Shown here piece by piece: positions 23,876 to 48,715 of a stretch of DNA of 54,684 nt. The notes under the pieces were generated by a model that saw only the letters and a program-made list of their open reading frames with translations, was not told where the DNA came from and did no database searches. Source of the DNA: a virus; the IMG/VR virus record IMGVR_UViG_3300031730_000005, positions 1 through 54,684 of that record; one strand, 5' to 3'. Both the position numbers and the translations under genes were made by a program. The number at the start of each line of letters is the position of its first letter. Position 1 is the first letter of the stretch.

Positions 23876-25168
23876 TTAGGTCGTAGCGGTTGACTGGGCA
23901 ACACCGAACATCGGCGTCAGATTGGTCGGGGTGCCTAGGACAATCGGGGTGGCCGGGCCACTCCAGGTAACGTATACGCGGCCAGTACCATTTGATGCAA
24001 CGATCGACATTGCCGTCGCCACGCCGCCCGTAATGATGGAGGTCGAGAGCTGCAGTGTTCCTCTGACATCGCCGGTCGTGCTGGTGGCCGAGGCAGTAAC
24101 AGCCGCGACAAACCCAGAGAAGTTGGCCATCGCGACACCGTTCCACGTCGCGTACAACTCTTCCCAATAGTCGGCCCTGATCGGCAAGCCCACAACGTCG
24201 CCAATACCGTAAGCAACCGTCTGGTTACTGCCTAGCGTCGTGCCGCAGGTAATAGAACTGATATACTTGAACGCTTTCTTGCCCATGAAGGTGGTGACCG
24301 TGGCAGCCGCGCTAATGACCTCAGTCATTGGCGCTCCCCAGATATCCCACCCTGAGACTACACAGCTATAGGCCGTATTTAGGGCCGTAACGCCCTGCAG
24401 AGAGATGGTGCGAGTCAGCATCTCTCGGGGATTGTAGACGCGGGCAAATCCAGCCTCCATGGCACCGCCAAAAGCATGTCCCGTAGCTGTCGGAGCAGTA
24501 GGACCAAACTGCGTCGCAGGCGGTAAAAGCGCACTACCCCACAGATTGGCCTGTCCGATATTTGTATGCGAGATGCCAGTAGCCGCAGCAGGGCTGATCT
24601 GAATGGCCGTCGAGGACGTTGCGGTCATCACCTGGGCAATCAGGCTGCGAGATCCAGCCGTATTAGCCGCGCCGCCGACCACGATCCACTGACCCTGACG
24701 GAAGATGGTGCTGTCCACCACCGCAACAGTCGAACTGTTCGCCGTAGTCGTTCCCGTGGCAAAGCCGAAATCAAGCGCAATGTTGGCGAAGGTCGCAACC
24801 GTGGTCCCAAGCGGGATAATCGGCACACCGATCGTAATGGCCGCCACACTCGCGTTACCCGCGATCATCGCAGTCACCAGCGCAACAGTGCTCCCAAGCG
24901 CCGTACCCTGCTGAGCCGCAGCAATCAACGTCGAGCCACGAGCCTGCGGGATGTTGTCCAGAAGGACAAAATCCGATCCAGTCAGGAACGCTGGCTGCCG
25001 TCCCGGAGCCGTCCCGTCCTTCGAAAAGGAACCAGAGCGAATGTCAGGATAGCCCGTTGCCTGATAGAACAGGCTGGGTCCGTCAAGAGGCTCAACGCTG
25101 GCCGTAGCCGCGTTGGCCTCCATTGCGCCCATCGAGTTGACCGGGCCTCGGAAGTTAGAATCAGCCAT
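23876..25168 (-). CDS. virion structural protein, 430 aa
   Basis: Ala/Thr/Gly-rich beta protein. Starts MADSNFRGPVNSMGAM; GDVVGLPIRADYWEELYATWN and GWDIWGAPMTEVI are conserved-looking segments, the latter kind being seen in phage head proteins near the capsid gene. The start overlaps the end of the HNH gene by 8 bases and has GAGG six bases upstream. Probably a head decoration or minor capsid protein; not assigned further. Confidence 0.6.
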   Translation of the reverse strand: MADSNFRGPVNSMGAMEANAATASVEPLDGPSLFYQATGYPDIRSGSFSKDGTAPGRQPAFLTGSDFVLLDNIPQARGSTLIAAAQQGTALGSTVALVTAMIAGNASVAAITIGVPIIPLGTTVATFANIALDFGFATGTTTANSSTVAVVDSTIFRQGQWIVVGGAANTAGSRSLIAQVMTATSSTAIQISPAAATGISHTNIGQANLWGSALLPPATQFGPTAPTATGHAFGGAMEAGFARVYNPREMLTRTISLQGVTALNTAYSCVVSGWDIWGAPMTEVISAAATVTTFMGKKAFKYISSITCGTTLGSNQTVAYGIGDVVGLPIRADYWEELYATWNGVAMANFSGFVAAVTASATSTTGDVRGTLQLSTSIITGGVATAMSIVASNGTGRVYVTWSGPATPIVLGTPTNLTPMFGVAQSTATT

Positions 25169-25766
25169 ATGAGCCCTCAAAGTTTGGCGTGGCTACCAAT
25201 AGCCAGTCGCGATGTGGACTCCGTGCGACCGCTTCCGCCGTGGCGCGATCCCAATCGGAAACTAGTTCGACATGTGCGAACTCGCCGTGAATTTCCTTGG
25301 CCTTGGCGGCATACGCAGCCTTGGCATCCTCAAGTTTGGCGAAGTAGCCGAGATAATGGCGAACGCCGCCGTGATGGATGCGCGCAACGAATCCGGCACC
25401 GTGCGGGAAGATGCCGCGCGACGGGGCAATTTTGGCAAACACCTTGCGACGCGCCGAATTCTGAGAGGCCGTGCAGTCGCGTAGGTTGGAGATCGCGTTA
25501 TTGCACTTGTTGCTGTCGATATGGTCAAGCTGCCCAGCCGGCCATTCCCCATGGACGTAGAACCAGATCAACCTATGGACAAAGTAGACGACGTTATCGA
25601 CTTTCACCCGAACGTAACCAAGAGCGTCAACCGTCCCCAATGGTTTCCCTACGGTTTTTCCGGGGCCTCTCACCTTCCACATCAACGTTCCGGTCTCTGG
25701 AACACAAGCCATATGCTCGCGGAGCCATTCGACGGTCAAAGTGGATGCTTTCTCTTTCGGCGTCAT
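25161..25766 (-). CDS. HNH homing endonuclease with AP2-like domain
   Basis: 201 residues on the late strand. HNH core: VHRLIWFYVHGEWP, GQLDHIDSNKCNNAISNLRD and SQNSARR (about 68-110); an AP2-like DNA-binding part follows (GAGFVARIHHGGVRHYLG, EIHGEF). The last ~35 residues exceed the usual family end. The ATG at 25766 is preferred over that at 25772 because AGGAG then lies seven bases upstream. The gene is separated from the capsid gene by a 121-base region holding a promoter-like site and a hairpin touching the ribosome binding site, which suggests controlled expression. It lies between capsid and minor virion genes. Confidence 0.85.
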   Translation of the reverse strand: MTPKEKASTLTVEWLREHMACVPETGTLMWKVRGPGKTVGKPLGTVDALGYVRVKVDNVVYFVHRLIWFYVHGEWPAGQLDHIDSNKCNNAISNLRDCTASQNSARRKVFAKIAPSRGIFPHGAGFVARIHHGGVRHYLGYFAKLEDAKAAYAAKAKEIHGEFAHVELVSDWDRATAEAVARSPHRDWLLVATPNFEGSYG

Positions 25767-25776
25767 GTCCATTCTC

Positions 25777-25887: not shown

Positions 25888-26802
25888 CTACGCCGTCGGA
25901 AACTCCCCCCATGCAGCTCGGGGATCATTTATACCGAAAGAGTATCTTTCGTAAGCTTTAACAAGTAAGTTGTCGGTAATATTATCAACCCACATGTCCG
26001 ACTCATACGGAATGCGCAACATATGAATGAGGCCCTCGATGTTCGTGGTGAGGAACCACGCGAAGTTCGAGGTGAGGAAGTCGAGCACGATGAAGCCTTC
26101 CGGGAGGCCGCCGGAGAGCGACAGGATGGCGTTGACGTCGTTGTCGGCGGTGCCGGGGCGCAGCTCGGTCTTGGTAAGGCGGATTGCGATAGCTTCAAGA
26201 TTGGGCGGCACGACAAGCTTGCGGGCCCGTGCCAGGATGCGCATGCCGCGCTCGTTGACGAACTGGGCGCGGACGTTGGTCATGTTCGCGAGCAGCGTCG
26301 ACTCGTTCAGCGACTTCGGCGTGCTGGACGTGTTAGCCCATGTGCCGCCGTCGTAGGGATGCGCGGTCGAGAAGAACGCGACGCCGTCGCCGACCTGACT
26401 GGCATTGTAGGTCGTGCCGAGGTTGAAGATGTTCGCAGCCTGAATTTCCTTGAACTGGGCGAACGCTTCCTGGAGCTTCAGGTTGGTGGGGTTGAACTGT
26501 GCTTTGTACAGATTGTCATCGATGGCCTTGCGTGTGATCGCGTATCCCAGCGCCACCTCGATATGGATGAACGCCCATGTAAAGCGCTCACCGGCGTTGT
26601 TGTCGAACTGGGTTGCCGCGCCCTCGTCCTTGAGGTACGGCAGCGCCACGAACGCCATCTGGGTGGAGCGCTCCACCGCCATCGATGATTTGTGGGTTTT
26701 GAAAACTTTGTCCCATTGCCTGGGTATCATGTCATAGCTGCCACGCACGTCAAACAGGCCGGGCAGCAGTTCAGAGCGAACGTTAGCTAATGAAATAGGC
26801 AC
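25888..26802 (-). CDS. major capsid protein
   Basis: 304 residues, the length and pattern of HK97-fold major capsid proteins of this phage type (gpT-like): RSELLPGLFDVRGSYDMIPR at the N-terminus, then QFDNNAGERFTWAFIHIEVA, ITRKAIDDNLY, FKEIQAANIFNLGTTYNASQ and FFSTAHPYDGG, ending YERYSFGINDPRAAWGEF. The start is GTG, placed by an excellent AAGGAGG six bases upstream. It lies between a small virion protein gene and a minor virion gene, both now separated from it by endonuclease insertions. Confidence 0.8.
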   Translation of the reverse strand: MPISLANVRSELLPGLFDVRGSYDMIPRQWDKVFKTHKSSMAVERSTQMAFVALPYLKDEGAATQFDNNAGERFTWAFIHIEVALGYAITRKAIDDNLYKAQFNPTNLKLQEAFAQFKEIQAANIFNLGTTYNASQVGDGVAFFSTAHPYDGGTWANTSSTPKSLNESTLLANMTNVRAQFVNERGMRILARARKLVVPPNLEAIAIRLTKTELRPGTADNDVNAILSLSGGLPEGFIVLDFLTSNFAWFLTTNIEGLIHMLRIPYESDMWVDNITDNLLVKAYERYSFGINDPRAAWGEFPTA

Positions 26803-26868: not shown

Positions 26869-26875
26869 AGATGAT
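26864..26875. repeat. direct repeat, copy 1, flanking endonuclease
   Basis: CCATTAGATGAT matches 27404-27415 at 11 of 12 bases. On the minus strand both copies read Ile-Ile-stop, the last codons of the upstream virion gene; the one difference is silent (ATC/ATT). The plus-strand ATG of the endonuclease lies inside this copy. Confidence 0.6.
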
Positions 26876-27401
26876 GATTGATGAAGAATGGCGGGGGGTC
26901 GCTAACTTCGAAGGATTTTATGAAGTCAGCAATCTCGGAAGAGTGCGAAGTGTCGATCGTGTTTGCGTCGACAGCCATGCGCTGTGCGGCGTGCGCCGAC
27001 GCCTTGGTCACATGATCAGGGGACGCGTCAACAAAGTGGGATACCCGCAAGTCGTTCTGTACCGAGACGGAAAAGGAAAGACGATAAACGTCCATCGCCT
27101 TGTTGCGTTCGCCTTCGTTCCCAACCCGAAGAACCTTCCGTTCGTCAACCATATCGATGGCGTCAAAACGAACTTCGTTGCGACCAACCTCGAGTGGGTG
27201 GATGATCGGATAAACAAACAACACGCCATCAATATTGGGCGTATCACTCGCTTCAAGAAACTCCTGACCTCGGAGGAGGCTGCCGAGATCAGAGTGTTGG
27301 GCGGGACGATGACCCAAACCGAAATAGCCAAGCGATTCGGCTGCACACAGACCAACGTTTCGTTGATCCTGCTTGGCCGCATTCACGCTGGTATCGGCTG
27401 A
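26871..27401 (+). CDS. NUMOD4/HNH homing endonuclease
   Basis: 176 residues on the plus strand, antisense to the late operon. NUMOD4 start: EEWRGVANFEGFYEVSNLGRVRS. HNH core: VNVHRLVAFAFVP, VNHIDGVKTNFVATNLEWV, KQHAIN (about 75-118; the first residue group begins INVHRLV). A C-terminal helix-turn-helix, MTQTEIAKRFGCTQTNVSLI, should bind the target. Two ATG codons are adjacent; AAGGA lies nine bases before the first. It separates the small virion gene from the capsid gene and is bounded by a 12-bp direct repeat. Confidence 0.85.
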   Translation: MMIDEEWRGVANFEGFYEVSNLGRVRSVDRVCVDSHALCGVRRRLGHMIRGRVNKVGYPQVVLYRDGKGKTINVHRLVAFAFVPNPKNLPFVNHIDGVKTNFVATNLEWVDDRINKQHAINIGRITRFKKLLTSEEAAEIRVLGGTMTQTEIAKRFGCTQTNVSLILLGRIHAGIG

Positions 27402-28229: not shown

Positions 28230-28997
28230 TTACGCCGCCGGCAGCATTTCAATCTGCGCTTCGCTCATCGGCTGGATGGCCTCCATTTGCGGCTGGGCAG
28301 CCTGAGCCTCGATCACGTCCAAGTATCGGCCGGAATAGTCGAACGGACCTACATGGCTCATTCTGCGGCCAATATTAGCCCATACCGACCCGCCGCACTG
28401 GCCCCAACGAATGCAGAACGAAAGGTCTTCAGAGACCAAGCCACGATCCGGAATGTCCAGCTTCTCAAACAGCCTCAGCAGTCGGTTTGTCCCTGCATTT
28501 CGCAGCGTCTCCCCGGCGGGGTGAAGATGCAGCCGCGTGTCGATCAATTCCGGGAACTTCTCAACCATCTGCGCAATGGCATCCCGCCGAATCAGCGTGC
28601 AGCCAAAGCCAACCCCCTCGCATTTCATGAAATCACCGCGGCGCTCGGCCTGTGGTGTTCCGTTGCCTGAACCGGCCCATGACAGCGGCATCTTGCGCTG
28701 AGGATAGATCGTTCCGACCACCGGCTCGTTGAAAATGAGCATGTCCGTCACGAGATCCGGCTCAAAGCCCATGTCTGCATCTATGAACAGGATGTGGCTG
28801 CTGTTCGGCATCGTGTCGTACCAGATCGTGACGAACATCGATCGCAGCTCGGCAATGTCTGGGAAAGACAGCGTCGTGATGCCGCCTCCGATACCCTTGT
28901 TCATCAAGTGCTGACGTAACGAATGGGTGGTCAGGAACGTGGTTGCGGTAATCATCTGGCCGAAGGCCGGAACTGCGATCAGAATATCGGTAGCCAT
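28230..28997 (-). CDS. glycosyltransferase-like protein, GT-A fold
   Basis: 255 residues. The N-terminus DILIAVPAFGQM is a Rossmann-like first strand; SHILFIDADMGFEPD (about 67-82) has the metal-binding DxD of GT-A enzymes; VGTIYPQRK, KCEGVGFGCTLIRRDA and LVSEDLSFCIRWGQCGG supply typical acceptor-side segments. Such enzymes transfer a sugar from a nucleotide-sugar. It is the last gene of the accessory enzyme block, next to the methyltransferase, and the acceptor is unknown. Confidence 0.65.
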   Translation of the reverse strand: MATDILIAVPAFGQMITATTFLTTHSLRQHLMNKGIGGGITTLSFPDIAELRSMFVTIWYDTMPNSSHILFIDADMGFEPDLVTDMLIFNEPVVGTIYPQRKMPLSWAGSGNGTPQAERRGDFMKCEGVGFGCTLIRRDAIAQMVEKFPELIDTRLHLHPAGETLRNAGTNRLLRLFEKLDIPDRGLVSEDLSFCIRWGQCGGSVWANIGRRMSHVGPFDYSGRYLDVIEAQAAQPQMEAIQPMSEAQIEMLPAA

Positions 28998-29009
28998 TAA
29001 CGAAGCCCT

Positions 29010-29687
29010 CTATTTGATGTTAGAGAAGAAAATATCAGTATTTTCGCAGCTTCTTTCCATGGCCTCGGTAAGTAGCTGGGCGTAGTTGGTCGGAATAACG
29101 AAGTCTAGCGGTGCCTGTCGGTGGACGGCAGTAATCTTGTCGGTCCATAGGTAATAACTATTCCAATATCTCGGACCTTGACGCAAGCGCTTGTCGATCT
29201 GATCTTCGTCAAACCTCAGATATTCCACGAACGGATACTTGGATACGAACCGAGCCTCTTCGCCGAACACCCACATGATGAAGCGATGATGGTGATAGCC
29301 ACGGAACGGAGGGGACCCACCGTCCACACCACGGCCCAGCTCGGCGATCGGAGATGGCGTCTCGACATATCCAGCCTTAGCAACCCTGCTCATCTCAGAG
29401 CAGAGCGGGAAAGGGTTGAACATATCTTCTAAAACGTGACGAGCGATCACGTAATCGAATTCTTTGTCCTTGAACGGCAGAGGTTCGTTTGCCGTGTCGC
29501 ACTTGATAAGGTTCTTGACGCCAGGAACGTCGACGAAGTCAACCGACACGTCCGCACGCGCAAACGGGCAATGCCCCGGACCTATCTCCAGCACCCTTGC
29601 ATCTTTTGGGATTACGACGTTGGTCAGATAATCATAGACTTCTTTAACCGGAGGCCAGTGCTTTTGATCGTTCTGCGTAAGCGCCAT
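29010..29687 (-). CDS. SAM-dependent methyltransferase
   Basis: 225 residues, class I fold. Motif I VLEIGPGHCPF is at 32-42, a post-I segment VDFVDVPGVKN follows, and ANEPLPFKDKEFDYVIARHVLEDMFNP carries the Methyltransf_11 hallmark. It should transfer a methyl group from S-adenosyl methionine; the substrate could be a sugar made by its neighbours. It lies between the thiamine-dependent enzyme and a glycosyltransferase with 11-12 base gaps, indicating one operon. Confidence 0.75.
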   Translation of the reverse strand: MALTQNDQKHWPPVKEVYDYLTNVVIPKDARVLEIGPGHCPFARADVSVDFVDVPGVKNLIKCDTANEPLPFKDKEFDYVIARHVLEDMFNPFPLCSEMSRVAKAGYVETPSPIAELGRGVDGGSPPFRGYHHHRFIMWVFGEEARFVSKYPFVEYLRFDEDQIDKRLRQGPRYWNSYYLWTDKITAVHRQAPLDFVIPTNYAQLLTEAMERSCENTDIFFSNIK

Positions 29688-29698
29688 TGAATATCCTG

Positions 29699-31447
29699 TC
29701 AGTCACTTTTTTCTAAATACGGCCACATGTCGTCAAGCTGTACCGGGAGAAACTTGCCATTCTCAACCCTCGTCTTGACTAAAGGCATGATGGTCTGGCT
29801 TTTCGATAGCTTCAACTCAAGTAAAAACGGCTGATTTGTCCCCACCACATTTTCAACTGCTTCGGCCATCTTATCATTTTTTGAGCATGAAATAGTGGGG
29901 ATTCCGAATGCCCTAGCCACTCTGACGAAGTCAGGCCAACTGACATCCGATTCCGGACTTGAGACAGCTTCCCGCCCGAAATGATTGCCCTGCGTAACCT
30001 GCATCGTTTTGTAGCCATTGTTCTCATACAAAACGATGATGATGGGCAAGTTGTGATGCTTGATCGTCTGCAACTCCTGAAGATTGAACATCGTGCCGCC
30101 GTCGCCCGTAAGGCAGATCACCTGCCGTCCAGGAGCCGCAAAGCACGCACCGATCGCCGCCGGCAAGCCGTATCCCATCGGGGCAATGCCGGGCGAATGA
30201 AACATCCTCTGATGTCCCGACATGGGAAGCGCCTGCATCGTAGCCACGAATGACGTGCCGACATCGGTAACTACGATAGCGTCGTCGTCCAGATTCTTCG
30301 CAAGCTCCTGCAAGAAAAAATACGAATGAACCCCGTCCTTAACCTCAGCATATGCAGGGTCGATAACTGGATACTCATCGCGCCAACTACGGCACTTCGT
30401 CAGCCAATCGTTCCATCCAACAAATAGAGTCATACTGCGATATTGAAGCATGAACTCTTCAAGAAAATCCCCAACGTCAGCAACAATCGGAAGATCCACC
30501 TTCAACGTGATCTTCTCGGTTTCCGCCTTGTCAATGTCGACCATGACAAGCTTGGCGTTGCGAGCGAAGTCCTTCCAGTTATGGCCTACCTGCGGAATGG
30601 AGAGCCTCGTACCGAGCGCAATCACCAAATCCGCATCCTGGATGGCAAAGTTTCCGGCTCGATCTCCGATCAGACCAGGCCTCCCCACATATAGTTGATG
30701 CTCGCTCGAAATCAGATCGGCGCCGTTCCACGAACATAGAATGGGAATCCTCGGCCCCATCGATATAAACTCTCTGAACTTGTCTTCCGCCCCAGAAAGA
30801 TGAACACCATTTCCTACCAGAATGACCGGTCGTTTAGCGTCATGTAGCAGAGACATTACCCCAACTACATCTTCGCTAAGTCCAGACGGCTTATGGCTCT
30901 TCTTTGGGGTGTACTGGACGCACTTCTCCGGATCGATCTCGGCCCCCTGTACGTTCAGCGGAATCTCAAGATAGACCGGGCCACGCCTGCCACCCATCGC
31001 ATAGGAATAAGCCATTTGCAGATGGAAGACGATCGATTCTGGATTTGTCACGCAAACCGCGTACTTCGTAATCGAGCGCATCAGCGCCACGCCGTTGACC
31101 TCGCTTATGCCTAGCATCCGCAGATCGGAAGTCTTCAGCGTAGAACTATCAACCTGTCCGGCAATCACCATCATCGGCAGTGAGTCGGCCCAAGCACATG
31201 CAACGCCAGTGATAGCGTTGGTAACGCCAGGGCCAGCCGTGACATGCACAACGCCGATCTTGTTGGACACCCTCGCATAGCTCTCGGCCGCAAACGCCGC
31301 AGCCTGCTCGTGATGCGTCGCAACCCACTTGATGCCGGGATGATGGGCAATTGAGTCGTTCAAATGCATCGCACCGCCGCCGCAGACGCCAAAGACATGC
31401 GGAGAGATGCCAGCAAGAAACTGGGCGACGAAGTCGGATACCTTCAT
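29699..31447 (-). CDS. thiamine-diphosphate enzyme, acetolactate synthase-like
   Basis: 582 residues with the full three-domain layout of IlvB-type enzymes. The PYR domain carries the catalytic Glu at 47 (ATHHEQAAAFAAESYARV) and TAGPGVTNAITG; the central domain has VILVGNGVHLSG and ALGTRLSIPQVG; the PP domain has the cofactor motif GDG at 448 with NN at 476-477. These enzymes join or split 2-keto acids or activated aldehydes. Related proteins in polysaccharide loci add two-carbon units to sugars (YerE type), so a sugar role is possible; a branched amino-acid role is less likely without the small subunit. The start is set by an ATGA overlap with the upstream HNH gene. Confidence 0.85.
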   Translation of the reverse strand: MKVSDFVAQFLAGISPHVFGVCGGGAMHLNDSIAHHPGIKWVATHHEQAAAFAAESYARVSNKIGVVHVTAGPGVTNAITGVACAWADSLPMMVIAGQVDSSTLKTSDLRMLGISEVNGVALMRSITKYAVCVTNPESIVFHLQMAYSYAMGGRRGPVYLEIPLNVQGAEIDPEKCVQYTPKKSHKPSGLSEDVVGVMSLLHDAKRPVILVGNGVHLSGAEDKFREFISMGPRIPILCSWNGADLISSEHQLYVGRPGLIGDRAGNFAIQDADLVIALGTRLSIPQVGHNWKDFARNAKLVMVDIDKAETEKITLKVDLPIVADVGDFLEEFMLQYRSMTLFVGWNDWLTKCRSWRDEYPVIDPAYAEVKDGVHSYFFLQELAKNLDDDAIVVTDVGTSFVATMQALPMSGHQRMFHSPGIAPMGYGLPAAIGACFAAPGRQVICLTGDGGTMFNLQELQTIKHHNLPIIIVLYENNGYKTMQVTQGNHFGREAVSSPESDVSWPDFVRVARAFGIPTISCSKNDKMAEAVENVVGTNQPFLLELKLSKSQTIMPLVKTRVENGKFLPVQLDDMWPYLEKSD

Positions 31448-32199
31448 GCTGCCTCTGAAGAAACGAGGTGAGGATGCCATGCAGGCTCAGTGGATTTGGT
31501 TTCCATGTTGGAAACTATCGCCTTGGCCATGACGAGCATCTCGGAGTCTGTCCAGCGACCCTTGAATATATTTACCATGCAGCACACCAAACGAATATTG
31601 GCATTGGTATAACCCAGTTTACTATCAATACGATCTATTGAAATAGAAGTAGGAGTAGTAACCCCACCTTTCCATGTCATTCTCAAGCCAGACACCGCGC
31701 AAAGTCCTCCTTGATCTTCCCATTTACCCATGAGTTCATCAAGCGTGATTGGACCTTTAGTTGGTCTTCTACGCAACGCGGCGCATAGACGCGTATTTAT
31801 CGAATGACGAGGAGACGCTATCTGCCGTTTATGCTCGCGCTCAATGACATGAGGTTGATTATAGTATTCCTTTGTTTTTGCCTTGACATCCGGTCGTTCA
31901 AATCTTGCCTTGCTTTTAGAGCTAATACACGAGATGCAATACGCGCTATATCCATAGCGAATATTCTTAATCTGATAAAAACGATCCAGCGTAAGAACAT
32001 CTTTACAACTTGAGCATTTCTTAAATCCAGATTCCGTTAACGCGGTGCTTCGTTCTTTCCTATTAGGCCACGTTCTACCGTTCTTACAGTACGAAAGACG
32101 GCATTCTCTGCAATAAACATCACGACCTGTAAGTTGAGATCGATTACGATGGAATTTGTCTTCGTCCTTTACTGCTTGGCATGCAGCGCATTTCAACAT
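31444..32199 (-). CDS. zinc-finger HNH endonuclease
   Basis: 251 residues on the late strand. The N-terminus has two Cys-pair zinc knuckles (LKCAACQAVKDEDKF with RECRLSYC; KKCSSCKDVLTLDRFY with CISC). The C-terminal part LCAVSGLRMTWKGG, SISIDRIDSKLGYTNANIRLVC and FKGRW is an HNH-type nuclease of the kind seen in free-standing phage homing genes. It starts within the radical SAM stop (TGATG) and ends in the thiamine-enzyme start (ATGA), so it has been slotted exactly between two enzyme genes. ATG is preferred over a GTG one codon earlier. Confidence 0.75.
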   Translation of the reverse strand: MLKCAACQAVKDEDKFHRNRSQLTGRDVYCRECRLSYCKNGRTWPNRKERSTALTESGFKKCSSCKDVLTLDRFYQIKNIRYGYSAYCISCISSKSKARFERPDVKAKTKEYYNQPHVIEREHKRQIASPRHSINTRLCAALRRRPTKGPITLDELMGKWEDQGGLCAVSGLRMTWKGGVTTPTSISIDRIDSKLGYTNANIRLVCCMVNIFKGRWTDSEMLVMAKAIVSNMETKSTEPAWHPHLVSSEAA

Positions 32200-33356
32200 C
32201 ACAGAAACTCCGGATGGACTGGCATCGGTCCATCATTAAACGATACTTCGCCGTGCTTGAATTTCCAAAGCCAATCCGCCGTTAAATGTTGCACGCAGTT
32301 CGGCCCGCATTGTTTGCTAGGGTCAAACTCTTCGGCTAAATATTTCATAACGTCCCAATATCTGTCACTTGACCAGATATCTCGGAAACGTTTCTCCGTG
32401 ATATTTCCGATGTGAACGCGCTTATAGTGCTCAGCAAACATTTGTCCGCATGGCGCGATGAGTCCTGATCCTGACATTTGGAGAAGGAACGGTGTCGCGT
32501 AGCACCTATGGTACTTGCGTTTCCCTTCGTCTTGAAGGCGCGACCACTTCACCACTACGCGGTGCTCAGGATCGCTCAATGCTTCTGCTTCCTGAAGAAG
32601 TGGGAATAGTGGATCATACTTTTTGTAATCAACTCCGATTGTACCAAGTCTGTCATCTGCACAATGCTTGATAATACTGTAATCTACGCGAAGTTCTTTC
32701 CCCAGCTTTGCAAAAGGCATAATCTGATCAGCCATTTCAGGCATGAGGACGATTTGGAAATTTATATTGACCGAAAGTCCATTCTTTCGCTTGATGTCAA
32801 CGGCATCTTTAATGTTCTGTATTACTTGATCGTAATCACGATCTTTAAGACCCATGATTTGCTTATAGCGATTGCGTTCGCCAGCAGAGAAGTTGAATCT
32901 CAAATAGCTTACGTTAGGCAAGATTCTCTCAAGAACCTTGCGCTTTAGTCGCACTCCGTTTGATCCAATACCTATTTTGATGCCGAGTTTTGCAGCGTGC
33001 TCAATAGACTCTTCGTACCATGGGACGACAGTTGATTCACCATCGCTAATCAGCGAAATGCCCCGTACCCCTATCTCTGCGGCATCATCAAGATAGTCTA
33101 AAGCATTTTGCTTCGTGATACGTGCACCACTTTCATTTGCCTGCGTTTGGGCTGCGCAAAAAACGCAGGCTGCGTTGCACTGCCTAGTCCACGCGACATC
33201 CATCGTCACAGGTGCTATTCGCTCGCCGCGATCCCATGCTTCTACGCGATCGCGGTACCAACTGATCTTTGTATGATCAAGCAATAGATCGTAAGCCGAA
33301 CCACTAGGTTTTGCCCCAGCGACGTAATCGAAAAATTCCGGCATTTGACTTGTCAT
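32199..33356 (-). CDS. radical SAM enzyme with C-terminal Cys-rich extension
   Basis: 385 residues. The cluster motif CNAACVFC (Cys 60, 64, 67) binds the 4Fe-4S and SAM; ISLISDGEST carries the usual GGE-type segment as DGE; FNFSAGERN and NINFQIVLM fit later strands. A C-terminal SPASM-like part has RCYATPFLLQMSGSGLIAPCG, the IGNITE-type helix (RVHIGNITEKRFRDIW) and QCGPNC. Such enzymes make carbon radicals on peptides, sugars or cofactors. No peptide precursor is evident nearby. AAAGGGG lies before the ATG; it is coupled to the 81-residue gene by ATGA. Confidence 0.8.
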   Translation of the reverse strand: MTSQMPEFFDYVAGAKPSGSAYDLLLDHTKISWYRDRVEAWDRGERIAPVTMDVAWTRQCNAACVFCAAQTQANESGARITKQNALDYLDDAAEIGVRGISLISDGESTVVPWYEESIEHAAKLGIKIGIGSNGVRLKRKVLERILPNVSYLRFNFSAGERNRYKQIMGLKDRDYDQVIQNIKDAVDIKRKNGLSVNINFQIVLMPEMADQIMPFAKLGKELRVDYSIIKHCADDRLGTIGVDYKKYDPLFPLLQEAEALSDPEHRVVVKWSRLQDEGKRKYHRCYATPFLLQMSGSGLIAPCGQMFAEHYKRVHIGNITEKRFRDIWSSDRYWDVMKYLAEEFDPSKQCGPNCVQHLTADWLWKFKHGEVSFNDGPMPVHPEFL

Positions 33357-33598
33357 GTCGGCCCCTTTGGCTGCTGAACGAATGTCACTGAATTAACCTC
33401 TCCGTCAGCCTTTTTCCACATCACTAGTATAGTTCCGTCGCGTTCAAGATCGAGCCAGAATGCGTCGCCATTGGGCGATCTAAAATCCAACCCGAGAGAC
33501 GAGTAATCTTCACAAAATGCCCATTCTCCGCCCGGATCAGTTTCCGTTTTTTCGAAATAATCCATTGCTTCGTTGAGAACTTTGACTGCTTCTGTCAC
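33353..33598 (-). CDS. small acidic protein of the accessory block, 81 aa
   Basis: Starts MTEAVKVLNEAMDYFEKTE and ends in a beta region (FWLDLERDGTILVMWKKAD). No family is recognised. It is coupled at both ends: ATGA with the DUF1330 gene upstream and ATGA with the radical SAM gene downstream, so it is expressed with the accessory enzymes; it could be a carrier, chaperone or partner for the radical SAM enzyme. Confidence 0.55.
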   Translation of the reverse strand: MTEAVKVLNEAMDYFEKTETDPGGEWAFCEDYSSLGLDFRSPNGDAFWLDLERDGTILVMWKKADGEVNSVTFVQQPKGPT

Positions 33599-33936
33599 GA
33601 TTTCCTAACTGAGGCCAATTCCCCCGGCTGATCCGGAGGCTGCGGGCCGTCGTATCCCTCTTGGATATATATATCAGATTCTGCAATTCCCCACCGGATT
33701 GCCAACGCTTCCTGATATTCTGGCGAGTTATAGCACGCCAATGCTTGATCAACGCTTTCGAATTCGAGAATGACGTTGCGGGATCTGTTCTTGCCCTCGA
33801 GCGTGATGAACGGCCCGCCACGGGTCAAAAACTTTGCCCCGTACTTGGCGAATGCCACCGCATTCGCTTTCACGTATTCCTTATATTTATCGGCGTCCTG
33901 AACGTCCAAGCGCGCGACCCAGTATCCCTTAGGCAT
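33595..33936 (-). CDS. DUF1330-like (ferredoxin-fold) protein
   Basis: 113 residues. KGYWVARLDVQDADKYKEYVKAN, FLTRGGPFITLEGKNRSRN and VILEFESVDQALACYNSPEYQEA are the standard DUF1330 segments, a small dimeric alpha-beta barrel fold seen in bacteria. Activity of this family is not established. The C-terminal IYIQEGYDGPQPPDQ is an extension. It overlaps the cupin end and the 81-residue gene, both within the accessory block. Confidence 0.75.
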   Translation of the reverse strand: MPKGYWVARLDVQDADKYKEYVKANAVAFAKYGAKFLTRGGPFITLEGKNRSRNVILEFESVDQALACYNSPEYQEALAIRWGIAESDIYIQEGYDGPQPPDQPGELASVRKS

Positions 33937-34513
33937 CTACCGGCTTCCTTATGCTTATGCCGCTATGATTGATCGAGATGTCATGGCCGAACCTATGAAT
34001 AGTCTCGTCCTCTCCGACACGTCCGTAGCCGTACTGCTCCAGGTTCTCCCTGACGATGTAGTTCTCGCCCTCGTAACCGATGTTAGCGCGGCCATAGGCG
34101 TCATTCGCACGGATCAGATCCAGCTTGCATGACGGGGTCTCGATCTCGATCACCTTCACGTCGGACGTTCCGTTGTTCCACAGACTATGAAACGTCTTGG
34201 GTAATAGGGTTACGGATTCCGAAGGCCTGATCAGGATATGACCACCCAACGTGATCAATGTGATTTCTCCAGTAAGAGGGAGCAGACATGCCGACTTATG
34301 CTGGTGACAGTGCAGAGACGTTGCTTTGTTCGGCGTTAGGTTCAGCATCCATACCGCATGCTTCTTGTCGTCGAATAGTTCGTATTCCCATCCCCAAGGC
34401 TTGAGAACGATACAATCGCGGTAGTCTTTGGGATGGATGCACGTATCGGCGCTAAGCTCTTTCAGCCTATCGTGAAGCAGCAATTCGTCGGCGCTGGATG
34501 GCTCAATGATCAT
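33929..34513 (-). CDS. cupin-domain protein, sugar-pathway type
   Basis: 194 residues. The cupin core is LKPWGWEYELFDDKKHAVWM, NKATSLHCHQHKSACLLPLTG (metal-type HxH and E region) and LLPKTFHSLWNNG (His), at about 40-130; this combination recalls phosphomannose-isomerase and sugar-isomerase cupins. The C-terminal part has IRANDAYGRANIGYEGENY, seen in cupins of polysaccharide loci. The start shares bases with the HNH stop (ATGA); an ATG three codons upstream is possible. A role on a nucleotide-sugar or sugar phosphate is inferred from neighbours. Confidence 0.7.
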   Translation of the reverse strand: MIIEPSSADELLLHDRLKELSADTCIHPKDYRDCIVLKPWGWEYELFDDKKHAVWMLNLTPNKATSLHCHQHKSACLLPLTGEITLITLGGHILIRPSESVTLLPKTFHSLWNNGTSDVKVIEIETPSCKLDLIRANDAYGRANIGYEGENYIVRENLEQYGYGRVGEDETIHRFGHDISINHSGISIRKPVDA

Positions 34514-35124
34514 TGATTCCATGCCCTGCCGGTTATGATATGAGAAACACGCGATTGAGAAATTCCATACCGGGAAGCTATATCGCGTTGCGTATGGCCT
34601 ATTCTTGATAATTCTTTTACTTCTAAAACATTTTCAGCAGATAATTTTGCATGATGGCTCGCTTCGCCACGAGGCTGAGAAATCCGCTTAGGTATTTTCC
34701 TCGTTCTTTCTTTCCATTCTTGGTTATTGATCCGATTGCATTCCTTGCACCGTCTACCGCTCGGATTGCTGGGAGTTGAAAAAGTGTTTTCTGGCGTAAA
34801 TTCATGCCCACGAACGCAATGTGTCTTCGCTAAATTTTGCGCCGCAACTCCAACCCCGCAGAGCACATTTTCTCTGATGGTGACGCAACGCAGATGGTCA
34901 GGATTTACGCAACACCTCACACGACAGATATGATCTATCTGAAGACCATGAGGTATTGGCCCCTTTGCGACTTCATAGGAGATGCGATGAGCCAACAGGG
35001 TTTTACCTTGATAACGAAAGCAGCCATACCCAGCAGGCATTAGACCAGTAAGCCAGAGCCAACATCCTGTGTTCGGCTCCGGTATAGATCTGCTAAGAAT
35101 GATGTCCTCCAATGGACCTTTCAT
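34510..35124 (-). CDS. HNH endonuclease with helix-turn-helix tail
   Basis: 204 residues. HNH segment: GCWLWLTGLMPAGYGCFRY, LLAHRISYEVAKGPIPHG, LQIDHICRVRCCVNPDHLR (about 20-82), with a Cys-rich knuckle after it (CVRGHEFTPEN, RCKECN). The C-terminus RIGHTQRDIASRYGISQSRV is a helix-turn-helix for DNA contact. It overlaps both neighbours by four bases (ATGA), so its insertion between the 68-residue gene and the cupin did not disturb coupling. Likely a free-standing homing gene. Confidence 0.85.
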   Translation of the reverse strand: MKGPLEDIILSRSIPEPNTGCWLWLTGLMPAGYGCFRYQGKTLLAHRISYEVAKGPIPHGLQIDHICRVRCCVNPDHLRCVTIRENVLCGVGVAAQNLAKTHCVRGHEFTPENTFSTPSNPSGRRCKECNRINNQEWKERTRKIPKRISQPRGEASHHAKLSAENVLEVKELSRIGHTQRDIASRYGISQSRVSHIITGRAWNQ

Positions 35125-35327
35125 AGGCGATTCCGCTGCTCTGGGGTCATTAGGTTCCGTAATTTACTGTCGTCACCCATGATCTCCTTGAACACTTCAA
35201 TATGCAATGTACCACCGCTGTTAGCGCGCAACACCCTCTCGAACTCCAGCAGCGAGCGAGCCTGAACATCTCCGGAAATTCCAGATCCGAAACGAACGAC
35301 AACATGCAACGGCGCTAGTTCTTTCAT
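35121..35327 (-). CDS. small conserved-type protein, 68 aa
   Basis: Pattern PLHVVVRFGSGISGDVQARS, LLEFERVLR, HIEVFKEIMGDDSKLRNLMT; it looks like a compact alpha-beta protein of a conserved kind, but the function is unknown. It is coupled by ATGA to the 73-residue gene upstream and to the HNH gene downstream. Confidence 0.6.
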   Translation of the reverse strand: MKELAPLHVVVRFGSGISGDVQARSLLEFERVLRANSGGTLHIEVFKEIMGDDSKLRNLMTPEQRNRL

Positions 35328-35545
35328 AGTAGTTCCTGGCTGAATGGCTCTTCTTTTTGAAAGAACCCAAGATTCCTGGCATACCTGAATTCACTAGGAT
35401 GAAACACCATCATGGCATTGACTTCAGGAATCTTTAGAAGCTCCTCTATGAGAGCGTTTGTAATAAAATAGTAATTGTTTTCCGCAGCGTAGGATCTAGC
35501 AACATCTTTTGCAGAAACTTCCATTGTTAAGTTTCCAAGTCTCAT
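35324..35545 (-). CDS. small protein of the accessory block, 73 aa
   Basis: Starts MRLGNLTMEVSAKDVARSY and contains NNYYFITNALIEELLKIPEV and YARNLGFFQKEEPFS. No family is recognised. It lies five bases after the isomerase-like gene and is coupled to the 68-residue gene. Confidence 0.55.
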   Translation of the reverse strand: MRLGNLTMEVSAKDVARSYAAENNYYFITNALIEELLKIPEVNAMMVFHPSEFRYARNLGFFQKEEPFSQELL

Positions 35546-35550
35546 AAGAA

Positions 35551-36159
35551 TTATCTCCTCTGCTTCTCAATCACTTCGTCCAGTATCGAATGCAGAATCG
35601 CAAGATGCGCGATCTCAACGGAACCATACTGGTTTGAGGGAACATAGAAATTCACTTGGCCTTTTGTCCTCAGGAAATTGCCGACGCCAAATCCGGACAG
35701 CGTAATGACGTTCATCATCTTGGCCTTGGCCGCGTCGACCGCTCGCAAAATGTCATCGCTCATGCCGGAGCTGGAGATAGCGAACAGCACATCGCCTAGC
35801 TGACCATGGCGCTCGATAACCTCTGAATAGATATGGTCAAATCCGTAGTCGTTTCCGTAGCAGCTCATGAGCGCGGAATCAGGTGGGCCGAAGGTGGTAA
35901 AGCCGCCGTTTTTCTGCCAGTCACAGGCCATATGAGAAGCGATAGCCGCCGATCCACCGTTCCCTATGAAGAACAGCCGCGCTTTCTGTAGACCATACTG
36001 CGTCACGAGGTCGTATGCCGCTTGGTAGCCGTTATCTTCCACCTGGATATTATCCAGTGCGGAGACAAGATCTACAAATCGTGGGGAGTGGCTCTCTAGA
36101 TATGGGAGAGGGGCATAACTACTCACAAGTCCGTAGCCGTATCGCTTTCCTCCGATCAT
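35551..36159 (-). CDS. SIS-domain phosphoheptose isomerase-like protein (GmhA-type)
   Basis: 202 residues. The phosphosugar-binding loop FFIGNGGSAAIASHMACDW (about 63-81), then CYGNDYGFDHIYSEVI and VLFAISSSGMSDDILRAV form a SIS fold of GmhA/DiaA type. GmhA converts sedoheptulose 7-phosphate to a heptose phosphate, the first step of ADP/GDP-heptose synthesis. The next gene upstream is an HldE-like fusion, the next enzymes of that pathway, which supports the assignment. ATGA overlap sets the start. Confidence 0.7.
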   Translation of the reverse strand: MIGGKRYGYGLVSSYAPLPYLESHSPRFVDLVSALDNIQVEDNGYQAAYDLVTQYGLQKARLFFIGNGGSAAIASHMACDWQKNGGFTTFGPPDSALMSCYGNDYGFDHIYSEVIERHGQLGDVLFAISSSGMSDDILRAVDAAKAKMMNVITLSGFGVGNFLRTKGQVNFYVPSNQYGSVEIAHLAILHSILDEVIEKQRR

Positions 36160-37553
36160 GCCAGCAACGCCTCCAACGTCTGCAAAATCTCGTCTCGCCC
36201 GACATGGCGCTTGTGACCTAGAATCGAAACCTTGATCGCGCCGACGATGTTTCCCACCAGCGCTGCGCATGCCATGTCCAGACCAGCGGCGACCAAGGGT
36301 GCGGTTACGGCCATCACTGCGTCTCCTGCGCCCATGGTGTCGATACCGCCTTGGGCGAGCGCTGGTGAATGCTCTTGCTGCACTCCTAATTTTGGTGAAC
36401 CTTGATAGTGGTATGACCCAAAACGTCCATGCGTAATTAAAAACTTCTCACACTCTATTTTTGTACTCAGCAAGGCTGCGATATGAGGAATACCTGATCT
36501 CTGCATCCCAGCCGCAAGCCTTGCCTCTGGATCGTCAATGCAGACGTAATCGGCTCTCGGATACTTCGTCACGAGATTGAACCCGTAATTTCCTGCGTTG
36601 GTCTGGCAATTGACCGCAAGGAACTTCGAATCCTTCAACAGATAGCGCTCTATGGTGCCAAGCAAGCCATGACCGAAGTCGTTGACGACAACGACATCAG
36701 CCGTCGCAACCGCATCTTGCAGTTTATCGCGGAATATGGCGCGGCTGTCCTCGGTCATTTCGATCTCACGCGCCGAGTAGACATCGAATAGCTTGCGGTT
36801 AAAGTCGGAGTCGACATACCGGGTCTTGGAAATTCCCGTGCTCCGGGGATGGCTCAGATAGTCTACGTTCTTCCATTCACCATGCTTCATCGCAGCCAGG
36901 ATACCGCCCTCAAAGGCATCCGCTCCGGTCTCAACCGTAGCCAGCATCATCTCCTTTGATGCCTTCCCAAGCCCTTGCACGTAGCGGTATACGTCGAGAA
37001 TGATCTCACCGACGAACAGGACTTTCTTCTTGTCAGCCGATTCGAACGCCTCAAGGATTTTATCCCGAGCGCCAAGGTTCTTCATGAAGTCCAGGTATTC
37101 GCAGACCTCGGCCGGGAACGTCTCGTTTTTCAGAAGCCGGGAAGAGGACCACTTGCGGCTACCCGTGATCTTCATCTGTCCGCCCACCTCCGCAATGGCC
37201 TCCCGTTCCTTGGCAAAGTCTGCATTGGTCGAGGCGACATAATCCACGCCCTTGACGTAGAACGCAGGCCTGAGCCTCCGAATGAGATCCCAGGCACCTT
37301 CCTCATCGTTGATGATCACCTCGTCGACGCATCCCAGCGAACAAATGGCCTCGGCGCGCTGCTCGGCGCTGAAATGAGGGCGGCCAATGCCCTTCTTGAC
37401 GTGGCGATCGGAGGACACCGACACGATCAGGTAGTCGCCGAACTTGGCCGCCTCCTGCAAATGGCGGATGTGGCCGAGGTGCAGCAGGTCAAAAACGCCG
37501 TGACATAGCACAACGGTTCGATCTCCGGATATCGCTACCGCCGTGCTTTCCAT
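36156..37553 (-). CDS. nucleotidyltransferase-sugar kinase fusion (HldE-like, domains reversed)
   Basis: 465 residues. N-terminal cytidylyltransferase-like domain: CHGVFDLLHLGHIRHLQEA with the HxGH at 25-28, GIGRPHFSAEQRAEAI, and PAFYVKGVDY near 97-105. From about 176 a PfkB-type kinase: VLFVGEIILDVYRYV and the catalytic GIDTMGAGD at 403-411. E. coli HldE has kinase first and transferase last; here the order is reversed. The expected activities are phosphorylation of a heptose phosphate and transfer of a nucleotide to it. Start: ATG with AGG seven bases upstream, sharing bases with the previous stop (TGATG). Confidence 0.75.
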   Translation of the reverse strand: MESTAVAISGDRTVVLCHGVFDLLHLGHIRHLQEAAKFGDYLIVSVSSDRHVKKGIGRPHFSAEQRAEAICSLGCVDEVIINDEEGAWDLIRRLRPAFYVKGVDYVASTNADFAKEREAIAEVGGQMKITGSRKWSSSRLLKNETFPAEVCEYLDFMKNLGARDKILEAFESADKKKVLFVGEIILDVYRYVQGLGKASKEMMLATVETGADAFEGGILAAMKHGEWKNVDYLSHPRSTGISKTRYVDSDFNRKLFDVYSAREIEMTEDSRAIFRDKLQDAVATADVVVVNDFGHGLLGTIERYLLKDSKFLAVNCQTNAGNYGFNLVTKYPRADYVCIDDPEARLAAGMQRSGIPHIAALLSTKIECEKFLITHGRFGSYHYQGSPKLGVQQEHSPALAQGGIDTMGAGDAVMAVTAPLVAAGLDMACAALVGNIVGAIKVSILGHKRHVGRDEILQTLEALLA

Positions 37554-38467
37554 CACGCCACCTTTGACTGATCAGGCAGCAGGAACCGTCGAAACATCTG
37601 TTGCTCGCTTTCCGGCATGCCGTAGTCCTCGAGCAAGCGCGGGATCATCGCAATGGCCCGCTGCTTCACCCGGTTATAGCGCTCGTCCGGCTTAAGGTTG
37701 CCGGCCCATTGAGACAATTGGGCGTTCTGCTGGCGAACATTATGGTTGATCATTCGCGATCTCGAATCGATCATCGGAAACCCGGCAATCAGCAAATCCT
37801 TTTGCCAAGCCGGACACTCAAACTCAGGATCATTAAGGATGCTCAAAGCCTGCTGCCGGCGCATCAAATAGGCCGCGTCAAACCATGTAGCCCACCAGCC
37901 AGGTTCGCGCATTTCCATCGTAACGCCGGGCCTGGATTGATCCGTTCTGATGTTGGCGAACGAAATGCGTCCAATCATCTTGGCAAGATCGTCCGTCCAA
38001 TGATCGCAGAACCAATACGGGAAATATGCCGGGAGAAGGAAGTCAAGCTTCTGTACGTATTTGGCTGTCGCCGCATAGGTGCACGAAAAGCTCATGTTGG
38101 CCAGATGGCCAAACACAGCGCCTATCCCATCGGGGAAACGTGCCGCGGCATCCAGAATCTTCTGGTCATACCCCGGAGTGGTGTAAGGATCATCATCCGC
38201 ATGATAGGCGTAGACATCGGCTGTAACTGCTGCGATGCGATTCCACTTGGCAGCTACAGTATCCTCTCGCGGCGCAATATTGACAATAATATTGCCTAAC
38301 GACGCGAGGCTATGACCCGTAATAACATCGATGGTCGGTAGATCGTCATCGTCAACCTGAACGTAGAGAACCGTGTCCCTGTTCGTCCAGTTCGACGAGG
38401 AAATTTTCAGGGCCTCAATAAGGCGATCTGGCCTGCCACGAGTAGCTAGGGATATTGCGAGTTTCAA
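37553..38467 (-). CDS. glycosyltransferase-like protein, GT-A fold
   Basis: 304 residues, TTG start (AAGAG just upstream). KLAISLATRGRPDRLIEAL followed by LYVQVDDDDLPTID (DDD at about 39-42) and YAYHADDDPYTTPGYDQ are typical of GT-A enzymes that bind nucleotide-sugars through Mg2+. GAVFGHLANMSFSC and WFDAAYLMRRQQAL lie in the acceptor half. It opens the accessory block and is coupled to the HldE-like gene, so its donor may be the sugar made there. Confidence 0.65.
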   Translation of the reverse strand: MKLAISLATRGRPDRLIEALKISSSNWTNRDTVLYVQVDDDDLPTIDVITGHSLASLGNIIVNIAPREDTVAAKWNRIAAVTADVYAYHADDDPYTTPGYDQKILDAAARFPDGIGAVFGHLANMSFSCTYAATAKYVQKLDFLLPAYFPYWFCDHWTDDLAKMIGRISFANIRTDQSRPGVTMEMREPGWWATWFDAAYLMRRQQALSILNDPEFECPAWQKDLLIAGFPMIDSRSRMINHNVRQQNAQLSQWAGNLKPDERYNRVKQRAIAMIPRLLEDYGMPESEQQMFRRFLLPDQSKVA

Positions 38468-42662: not shown

Positions 42663-42864
42663 GCTTGATCTCCTGTTTGATCTCGCGAAAGGAAGGGCCC
42701 GGAGTCTGAGCCATTCGCAAACGTTTAATTTCTTCAGCTGCATCAAAAAACAGTTTCCTCAGCGGGACATCCCAACTGATCTTTTCCTCTGAAAGCCACT
42801 CAGGCATTTCCGCCCCTTGTGGCAACGCGGCCATCCGTTCAAGCTTTTCAAGAACATCCATCAT
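42652..42864 (-). CDS. small protein after the portal, 70 aa
   Basis: Charged helical protein (VLEKLERMAALPQGAEMPEW, KLFFDAAEEIKRLRMAQ). It is coupled to the portal stop by ATGA. Unknown function. Confidence 0.55.
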   Translation of the reverse strand: MMDVLEKLERMAALPQGAEMPEWLSEEKISWDVPLRKLFFDAAEEIKRLRMAQTPGPSFREIKQEIKHGL

Positions 42865-46802: not shown

Positions 46803-47024
46803 TTATGTCTCATCCATCGGTAGCGGCTCGTTGATTGAAACAGATGCAGGCATCAGCGGGCCGTCAATGGATACCGCGCGGGCTACGGAACTGAGTTGGG
46901 AGATCTGGGAGCGGAGCATTTCAATCTCGCGGCTCCCAAGTTCAAGCAAATTTGCGGTCAGAGGTTCTGTCTTTTCGATCACTCTCCACCTCTGTCTCAT
47001 GAGATCAACAATATCCTCCTTCAT
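46803..47024 (-). CDS. small helical protein after terminase, 73 aa
   Basis: MKEDIVDLMRQRWRVIEKTE, LGSREIEMLRSQISQLSSVA: heptad-like helix. ATGA overlap with the terminase stop. Unknown. Confidence 0.5.
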   Translation of the reverse strand: MKEDIVDLMRQRWRVIEKTEPLTANLLELGSREIEMLRSQISQLSSVARAVSIDGPLMPASVSINEPLPMDET

Positions 47025-48715
47025 GAGAAATACTCCTGTGCCACCGAGCCGCGCCGCATCTTCGCCAATTCCTTGATCTGGTCCTCGATCTCCATCGCCT
47101 TGGCTTCGTCGTCCGTGTTGGCGAGGCCGCTGGCGCGAAGGTGCTTGATCGCCTGTGTAGCGGAGTCGGTCAGGTCGCGGTACTTGTGCTTCGGAAACGA
47201 TTCCATCTCGTCAATCACCATATCGGCCCAGTCCCGTGCCGGCGCATAAACAAGTAGTTGTGAGAATGTCGGCTGCGCCGCATAGGCCCGAGCTTCCTTG
47301 CTTCCCGCAACCTGACAGAGCTGCACCGAGAAATCCAGACGGCCATAGCGGTTCGACAACTCTTGTGCCGCGCTTATTCCATTAGCCTTGGCCTCGATCA
47401 AAAGCCGGTCGACCTTGAATCGTTCACAGGTATATTTCACCCACTCCATCAGGCCCCACTTGGCCTGCGTGCGCTGCACCCAATGCTGGAGGCTCTCGCC
47501 GGGTGATCTATCCATGCGAGGCCCGGAAAATTGTAGGTGCTTGCGCCAGGCGTGCACCAGCATGATCCGGTTCTCGCCTTCCTTGCTGAACACGCCCCAG
47601 ATCGTCAGCGCGCTCGGATCGTTGCGCTCCTGCTCAGTGAAGGCCGAATCGAGCGAGGCCACCAGATAGTCAAACACCGGAAAGCGACCGTCTGAGCTTT
47701 CCCAGAGCTGCCACCATTCGCGCCTGAAGATGCCGCCGCCACGCGGCGAGGGGCTCTGGCCGTACTGCCCTGCGACCGCATACGGCCCGATGTCAGTCTG
47801 GATCTTCTCCCAAACGGCTTCGGAGAAGCGTTCTGGCCATGCCAAAATGCCATCCAAATCGTCGATGTTATCAGATTCGTCATAGCGAGGATCGTACCAG
47901 CCAATAGATGTGCTCCTCGGATATCCCGGATCTGGATCGTCAGATCCCTGCACTTGGCGCGATGTATCGTACTCCATCGGGATCATCAGGTGCTCATAGG
48001 CCATGCCGGCCTCGAGGATGACGCCCGACACGTCGTCGCCGTGCAATCGCTGCATGATCACGATAATGACGTCCGTTTCCATGTCGTTCAGACGGTTGGA
48101 CATCGACTCCCGGAACCATCGGATGGTCTCGCCGCGCACAATCTCCGATTCAGCCTCCTTGACGTTATGGGGATCATCAAGAATGACACGATTGCCGCGC
48201 TCGCCAGTACCGACGCCTCCGACCGATGAAGCCAGCTTCCAGCCCGTGGCCTGATTGGACACCATCTTGGCGCCCAGCATGACGAGCTGGACCTTCTGGC
48301 TATAGAGCTCTTGGTACTCGGGACATGAGACCAGCGAGCCGAAGCGGCGATTGTCGCGCTCGGTCAGGCTGGAGGAATACGAGAACGTCACGTAGCGGAG
48401 GTGCGACCCGATCGTGGCCCATTCCCATGCTGGCCAAAATACGTCGACCAACAACGATTTCATGAAGCCGGGCGGCACATTGATCAACAGCCGCGTAATC
48501 TCGCCCCGCGACACCGCCTCGAGGTGCAGGCAGATCGCATGCAGCGGCCAGCCATCGACGAATACGGTCTGAGGCTCCAGCACATGCCAGAAGTGCTTGA
48601 CGAAGCGGAGCAGCCCGCCAGGAGCCGCAAAGCTATTGCGCAACAGCCGGCGCTGAGCCTCCTTCTGGAGGCTTTCCAAGCGGCGGCGGGTGTCTGCGTC
48701 TAGCTTGAAGGTCAT
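47021..48715 (-). CDS. terL: terminase large subunit
   Basis: 564 residues. ATPase: INVPPGFMKSLLVDVFW (Walker A-like with PPGFMKS at 81-87), then GNRVILDDPHNV (Walker B, 175-184) and a coupling segment VIIVIMQRLHGDDV (216-229). Nuclease: DYLVASLDSAF (acidic Asp near 356), DRLLIEAKANG and a later acidic helix. It cuts and translocates DNA into the prohead via the portal. The PPGFMKS variant of the Walker A loop occurs in related terminases. Small subunit is encoded about 900 bases upstream, split by small genes. Confidence 0.9.
   Translation of the reverse strand: MTFKLDADTRRRLESLQKEAQRRLLRNSFAAPGGLLRFVKHFWHVLEPQTVFVDGWPLHAICLHLEAVSRGEITRLLINVPPGFMKSLLVDVFWPAWEWATIGSHLRYVTFSYSSSLTERDNRRFGSLVSCPEYQELYSQKVQLVMLGAKMVSNQATGWKLASSVGGVGTGERGNRVILDDPHNVKEAESEIVRGETIRWFRESMSNRLNDMETDVIIVIMQRLHGDDVSGVILEAGMAYEHLMIPMEYDTSRQVQGSDDPDPGYPRSTSIGWYDPRYDESDNIDDLDGILAWPERFSEAVWEKIQTDIGPYAVAGQYGQSPSPRGGGIFRREWWQLWESSDGRFPVFDYLVASLDSAFTEQERNDPSALTIWGVFSKEGENRIMLVHAWRKHLQFSGPRMDRSPGESLQHWVQRTQAKWGLMEWVKYTCERFKVDRLLIEAKANGISAAQELSNRYGRLDFSVQLCQVAGSKEARAYAAQPTFSQLLVYAPARDWADMVIDEMESFPKHKYRDLTDSATQAIKHLRASGLANTDDEAKAMEIEDQIKELAKMRRGSVAQEYFS

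Follow-up and report, generated by a model that had tools for sequence, protein, structure and literature searches.

Why should a run of sugar and small-molecule enzyme genes lie inside the head operon of a phage? The question is raised by the virus record IMGVR_UViG_3300031730_000005, whose 54,684 bases (hereafter the window, meaning the whole stretch analysed) give PHROG matches that identify a tailed phage, with a gene set that fits a podophage (short-tailed). At 28230-38467, on the minus strand, an enzyme block sits between the portal, GroES-like and scaffold genes on one side and p27407 and the major capsid protein (MCP) gene on the other. Reading across sequences and structural models, we give a probability of roughly 55% to the block being a head-operon cassette for sugar-nucleotide synthesis and glycosylation, carried by the phage, that would make a branched, perhaps methylated sugar and likely place it on a virion protein. 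The best evidence for branching is that one slot in the block appears to be filled by two known classes of branching enzyme, both dependent on thiamine diphosphate (ThDP).

The genes of the block, all on the minus strand, are as follows.

37553-38467, minus: GT1, a GT-A-like glycosyltransferase (PHROG 14945, E=4e-8; conserved DDD at residues 91-93)
36156-37556, minus: HldE-like nucleotidyltransferase-PfkB fusion (PF01467, PF00294; HxGH, SSSR, GAGD)
35551-36159, minus: GmhA-like SIS sugar-phosphate isomerase (PF13580; TIGR00441 below cut-off)
35324-35545, minus: 73-residue protein, function unassigned, without a Pfam match
35121-35327, minus: s68, a 68-residue protein with a conserved tail, DDSKLRxxMTxEQRxKL
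34510-35124, minus: HNH endonuclease, a probable homing insertion (PF13392)
33929-34522, minus: cupin of the mannose-6-phosphate isomerase C-terminal type (PF01050, E=2e-8)
33595-33936, minus: DUF1330 protein (PF07045, E=3e-33; 67-72% in contigs L091/L093)
33353-33598, minus: 81-residue protein, function unassigned, without a match
32199-33356, minus: radical S-adenosylmethionine (SAM)/SPASM enzyme (PF04055, PF13186; CxxxCxxC at 60)
31444-32202, minus: HNH-type endonuclease-like protein between the radical SAM and ThDP genes (weak Pfam matches only)
29699-31480, minus: ThDP enzyme, acetolactate-synthase-like (8rph, E=2.6e-119; HHE, GDG-X-N)
29010-29687, minus: SAM-dependent class I methyltransferase (PF08241, E=5e-6)
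28230-28997, minus: GT2, a glycosyltransferase of GT-A fold (invariant DxD at 73-75, ED at 190-191)

All the genes named by an earlier sequence-only reading of this DNA are present where it had placed them, on the minus strand between the scaffold and capsid blocks, but it had omitted the two HNH genes and the open reading frames (ORFs) of 73, 68 and 81 residues, of which the second, s68, is part of the set. Most junctions are 4-base overlaps, as it had said; others are gaps or longer overlaps (for example 12 bases at methyltransferase/GT2 and 223 bases at GT2/p27407). The best start of the GmhA-like gene is 36159, not 36270, which gives ATGA-type coupling with the fusion gene. Catalytic motifs are kept in the radical SAM enzyme (CxxxCxxC and four SPASM Cys), the ThDP enzyme (Glu and GDG-X-N) and the fusion (HxGH and GAGD), and the SIS motifs, methyltransferase motif I and the DxD of both glycosyltransferases are also intact. 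Relatives of the HNH-type protein at 31444-32202 adjoin the radical SAM genes of three other contigs (L102, L118 and L185).

Three protein alignments (radical SAM, fusion and SIS) served to scan IMG/VR, and the genes of the window were then compared by tblastn with the retrieved loci. At least 25 contigs, a set that includes near-duplicates, are ordered portal-scaffold-p38510-GT1-fusion-SIS-s68-radical SAM-methyltransferase-GT2-p27407-MCP, and shorter contigs show part of this order. A contig binned with a Rhizobiales genome (L011) also carries the block; this binning and the relatives raise a suspicion, no more, of an alphaproteobacterial host. Empty sites were found in cultured relatives. 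In HTVC023P a gap of 53 bases, from the end of the p38510-like gene at 25134 to the start of the p27407-like gene at 25188, takes the place of the block; likewise, the block is absent between the neighbouring genes in CRP-901, HTVC027P and Alcaligenes phage QDWS535, and in the uncultured phage MW202675. The radical SAM tree holds 124 proteins, of which the 35 from this lineage form one clade separate from bacteria (Shimodaira-Hasegawa-like approximate likelihood-ratio support of 100), which suggests a single acquisition of the block followed by diversification within phages. A near-identity DNA search against phages gave no match, nor did the ThDP protein when used as the single query against viral contigs, whereas the radical SAM, fusion and SIS alignments succeeded as queries. 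A tblastn search of the phage collection with the ThDP enzyme returned mostly acetolactate-synthase-like records, many of them short or bacterial-looking, and was not used.

The genes of the block do not all share their nearest relatives. The portal, scaffold, GT1, fusion, SIS, methyltransferase, GT2, p27407 and MCP of the window are closer to one group of contigs (L117/L095/L099), while its s68, DUF1330, radical SAM and ThDP proteins are closer to L091/L093. The middle module, from s68 to the ThDP gene, has therefore probably been exchanged between phages by recombination, as in surface-glycan loci.

The ThDP enzyme is matched strongly by PF02776, PF00205 and PF02775, which makes it a three-domain enzyme of the decarboxylase type, and it keeps the catalytic Glu and GDG-X24-27-N. 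Its closest solved relative is 8rph (402.6 bits), followed by 5ahk (289) and acetohydroxyacid synthase I (254 bits). The structure 8rph is that of JanthE, a YerE-like enzyme that joins 2-oxoacids to ketones to give tertiary alcohols (PMC12188165). The placement near YerE-like enzymes comes from bit scores by way of JanthE. Other lineage members lack the ThDP gene and have instead a pair of genes, c16 and c7, ahead of s68. The first encodes an E1_dh protein (PF00676) whose nearest relative, weakly, is pyruvate dehydrogenase E1 alpha, and the second a Transket_pyr protein (PF02779, below the Pfam cut-off). Of the viral loci that carry the radical SAM gene (a list that includes the window itself as L001), 12 have an acetolactate-synthase-like enzyme, 28 an E1-alpha/beta pair, one E1-alpha alone and five neither, and none has both. 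The same exclusion was seen in bacterial loci, where four are acetolactate-synthase-like, 46 have the E1 type or part of it, 30 have neither and, again, none has both. At least four switches of ThDP type are needed on the lineage tree.

Both types have precedents in the synthesis of C-branched sugars: YerE-like enzymes act in lipopolysaccharide (LPS) and two-subunit enzymes of the alpha-keto-acid-dehydrogenase type in antibiotics, with pyruvate or other 2-oxoacids as donors (PMC12247030; PMC4753412). It is the relationship to JanthE and YerE-like enzymes, together with the replacement by an E1-type pair, that points to a branched sugar. Two unrelated ThDP types alternating in one slot would also offer a natural test of whether both carry out one step. 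A 735 kb huge phage (LR756501) has a radical SAM gene related to these, flanked on either side by E1-type ThDP genes.

The auxiliary Cys of the radical SAM enzyme are at 285, 303, 350 and 354, and its relatives in the PDB include PqqE, BtrN and DesII. In bacterial loci a domain homologous to s68 often forms the C-terminal end of the protein whose gene immediately precedes that of the radical SAM enzyme, several of these matches being weak; s68 is therefore most likely a partner of the radical SAM enzyme. The AlphaFold model of s68 is beta-alpha-beta with the conserved tail at its C-terminus (predicted local distance difference test score, pLDDT, of 87). Its fold search gave no significant match, leaving the idea of a 4-oxalocrotonate tautomerase-like protein unsupported. 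On an Azospirillum oryzae plasmid (NZ_CP054615) the fusion (39%), SIS, E1-type ThDP pair, aminotransferases and radical SAM (53%) genes lie within about 10 kb, and the same core was found in genome loci of several phyla (examples are Nisaea, Elusimicrobia, Pelagibacter and Omnitrophota). The sequence-only reading could name no described counterpart for the combination; the searches of phage genomes and of bacterial glycan loci correct this, the block recurring in the contigs described above, its core in bacteria and partial sets in other phages.

From the gene set, its conservation and motifs, the exchange of ThDP types and the swapping of the middle genes, we infer substrates, an order of steps and an acceptor. 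The GmhA-like isomerase and the nucleotidyltransferase-kinase fusion would make a nucleoside diphosphate (NDP)-activated sugar, possibly a higher sugar such as heptose. The radical SAM/SPASM enzyme, with s68 as its partner, would oxidise or otherwise prepare this NDP-sugar, and the ThDP enzyme could then attach, at a keto position, a short unit taken from pyruvate or from another 2-oxoacid, so that the product would be a C-branched sugar bearing a tertiary alcohol. Finishing may fall to the cupin and the methyltransferase, methylation by the latter being plausible from its family, and GT1 and GT2 would pass the sugar on, with a virion protein as the most likely acceptor.

Neither GT1 nor GT2 had a significant Pfam match, and profile searches with both against PDB sequences gave nothing significant. 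GT1 homologues of 17 out of 20 lineage members match PHROG 14945. The AlphaFold model of GT2 has a GT-A fold (pLDDT 87.7), with STIV A197, the collagen galactosyltransferase COLGALT1 and LH3 as best Foldseek matches and the PBCV-1 capsid glycosyltransferase further down; as modelled, GT2 resembles glycosyltransferases that modify proteins, that of the PBCV-1 capsid included. No GtrA gene (PF04138), no WecA-type gene and no member of the thymidylate-synthase family (PF00303) was found in 13 records, and these absences, taken with the location next to the capsid gene, make a virion protein a likelier putative acceptor than the host surface.

The block could instead modify the LPS or capsule of the host late in infection, hiding receptors on cells or debris from released phages or competitors. 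In bacteria the related sets have glycosyltransferase and surface-polysaccharide-like genes around them, YerE-like enzymes function in LPS synthesis (PMC12247030), and both the cyanophage SynMITS9220M01 and Caulobacter phage Cr30 have sets of GmhA, heptose-kinase and glycosyltransferase genes outside their head operons. Against these stand the missing lipid-carrier genes of the GtrA and WecA types and the position next to the capsid gene throughout the lineage, and we regard host-surface modification as rather unlikely.

The sequence-only reading had proposed that GmhA and HldE give nucleotide-heptose. As an explanation of the whole block this would be a plain heptose pathway with accessories, the ThDP and radical SAM enzymes serving a separate metabolism. 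The GmhA-type and HldE-type domains are indeed clear. However, the fusion falls below the cut-off of every HldE NCBIfam equivalog (117/521, 104.4/181.5 and 67.2/345 bits) and the SIS protein reaches only 86.7/209.45 bits against TIGR00441 (GmhA). The nucleotidyltransferase of the fusion is N-terminal and the PfkB kinase C-terminal, the reverse of E. coli HldE. About 26 residues of the lid region of the kinase are missing relative to bacterial homologues and, since this deletion is common to all aligned lineage fusions, it is no recent break. The catalytic pair of E. coli GmhA we take to be Glu65/His180; the His is kept in the SIS protein, and Asp80 stands at the position of the Glu in the window and in four relatives in the A3 alignment. 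GmhB (TIGR01656) had no match over the cut-off in 16 records. The block was therefore not filed as an ADP-heptose pathway: a nucleotide-heptose product is not established, and a heptose precursor is possible. As the ThDP and radical SAM genes moreover accompany this set in many phyla, a plain heptose pathway beside a separate metabolism is improbable.

A sugar destined for phage DNA bases is more improbable still. Phage glycosyltransferases able to modify DNA are on record, being cited in PMC12619734, but the 13 records yielded no gene of the thymidylate-synthase/dCMP-hydroxymethylase family, and GT2 resembles protein or sugar glycosyltransferases. The TET/JBP search (PF12851) gave no match and its control was silent as well, so it is uninformative. 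Finally, a chance pile-up of host genes with no joint function can hardly be credited: the middle genes are variable and carry HNH insertions, but the recurring set, order and place, and a nonsynonymous divergence (dN) far below the synonymous (dS) in most block comparisons that allowed an estimate of dS (many being saturated), make the block more than chance, and with intact motifs and matching sets in bacteria nothing resembles a random assembly with broken active sites.

Several findings weigh against a branched-sugar cassette aimed at the virion. The block yielded no dehydratase or short-chain dehydrogenase/reductase (SDR) that would form a keto-sugar, which leaves the radical SAM step or the host as the source of the ketone. 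The lid deletion may mean that kinase activity is altered or lost, and GmhB is missing, though the host could supply it. The Foldseek TM-scores of GT2 are modest (0.33-0.50), contig counts overstate independence because of the near-duplicates, and gene position alone is no proof of a virion acceptor. The sequence-only claim that the phage makes and attaches a modified sugar nevertheless keeps its activation and transfer genes, with branching backed by the ThDP classes, methylation plausible and the virion tentatively favoured over the host surface as acceptor.

If the cassette reading is right, phages make an elaborate sugar and place it on their own particle, which bears on adsorption and on the diversification of phage surfaces. 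It would also link a widespread, apparently uncharacterised bacterial set (fusion, SIS, radical SAM and s68 domain) to branched-sugar synthesis, and hints that a radical SAM enzyme replaces the dehydratase by which a keto-sugar is usually reached. More tentatively, these podophages may coat the capsid itself with a C-branched, methylated sugar by means of the radical SAM and ThDP enzymes, swaps of the s68-to-ThDP module altering the glycan much as in O-antigen switching.

The structural genes around the block were identified by PHROG matches.

47021-48715: terminase
42861-45164: portal
25888-26802: MCP
12043-14082: stabilisation-type virion protein
6551-9808: ejection-type protein

Within the lineage the MCP is 87-99% identical, against mostly 45-81% for the portal, and at the DNA level its dS is about 0.8-1.1 with dN of 0.03-0.07; a dN so low despite this dS looks like unusually strong purifying selection. 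An HNH endonuclease (PHROG 99; 25161-25772, minus) lies close to the capsid gene, and a plus-strand ORF at 26871-27401, in the interval between MCP and p27407, has the look of an HNH or homing endonuclease from its sequence. These two ORFs flanking the MCP gene may help exchange in the region. In one contig a TROVE/Ro60-like protein with a vWA domain is encoded between GT2 and p27407 (L123:18811-20115). In three others (L147, L149 and L150) a nucleotidyltransferase domain lies outside the head-operon site, either following p16826 or immediately ahead of the gene for the stabilisation protein, and in two of the three a GmhA-like gene adjoins it. Elsewhere in the window, this one record encodes two DnaA C-terminal helix-turn-helix proteins (PF08299, E about 1e-24; 50437-51048 and 53365-54033, minus) and a PAS-domain protein of 157 residues (PF13426; 1148-1621, minus). 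Promoter and terminator scans gave nothing above chance.

Branched-sugar chemistry is known from bacteria, and we know of no report of it from a phage. One of the two alternating ThDP classes of the lineage is like the YerE-like enzymes (YerE, ErwE and JanthE), and the other is like the alpha-keto-acid-dehydrogenase-type branching enzymes of kibdelomycin, avilamycin and paulomycin. Yersiniose-type pathways start from a cytidine diphosphate (CDP)-keto-deoxysugar, whereas among the phage genes a radical SAM enzyme is present and a dehydratase was not found. The bacterial surface-glycan-like loci share the fusion (39-41%), SIS, radical SAM (53%) and ThDP enzymes and often an s68-like domain; they differ in that the annotated locus adds an SDR, an aminotransferase and others, the s68 domain forms part of a larger protein and the E1-type ThDP pair is commoner. 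Among phages, neither heptose nor radical SAM genes are mentioned in the main text of the paper on HTVC023P-type pelagiphages. Podophage MW202801 (Manatee Spring) has radical SAM, glycosyltransferase, methyltransferase, PhyH and NodB genes between MCP and the stabilisation protein, and Cr30 and SynMITS9220M01 have GmhA, heptose-kinase-like and glycosyltransferase genes, but in the stretches read all three lack the full set and no ThDP gene was found. Mycobacteriophage virions are reportedly glycosylated on capsid and tail-tube proteins (Freeman et al., 2023, cited in PMC12619734); the system described here differs in having a whole sugar-synthesis set beside the capsid gene.

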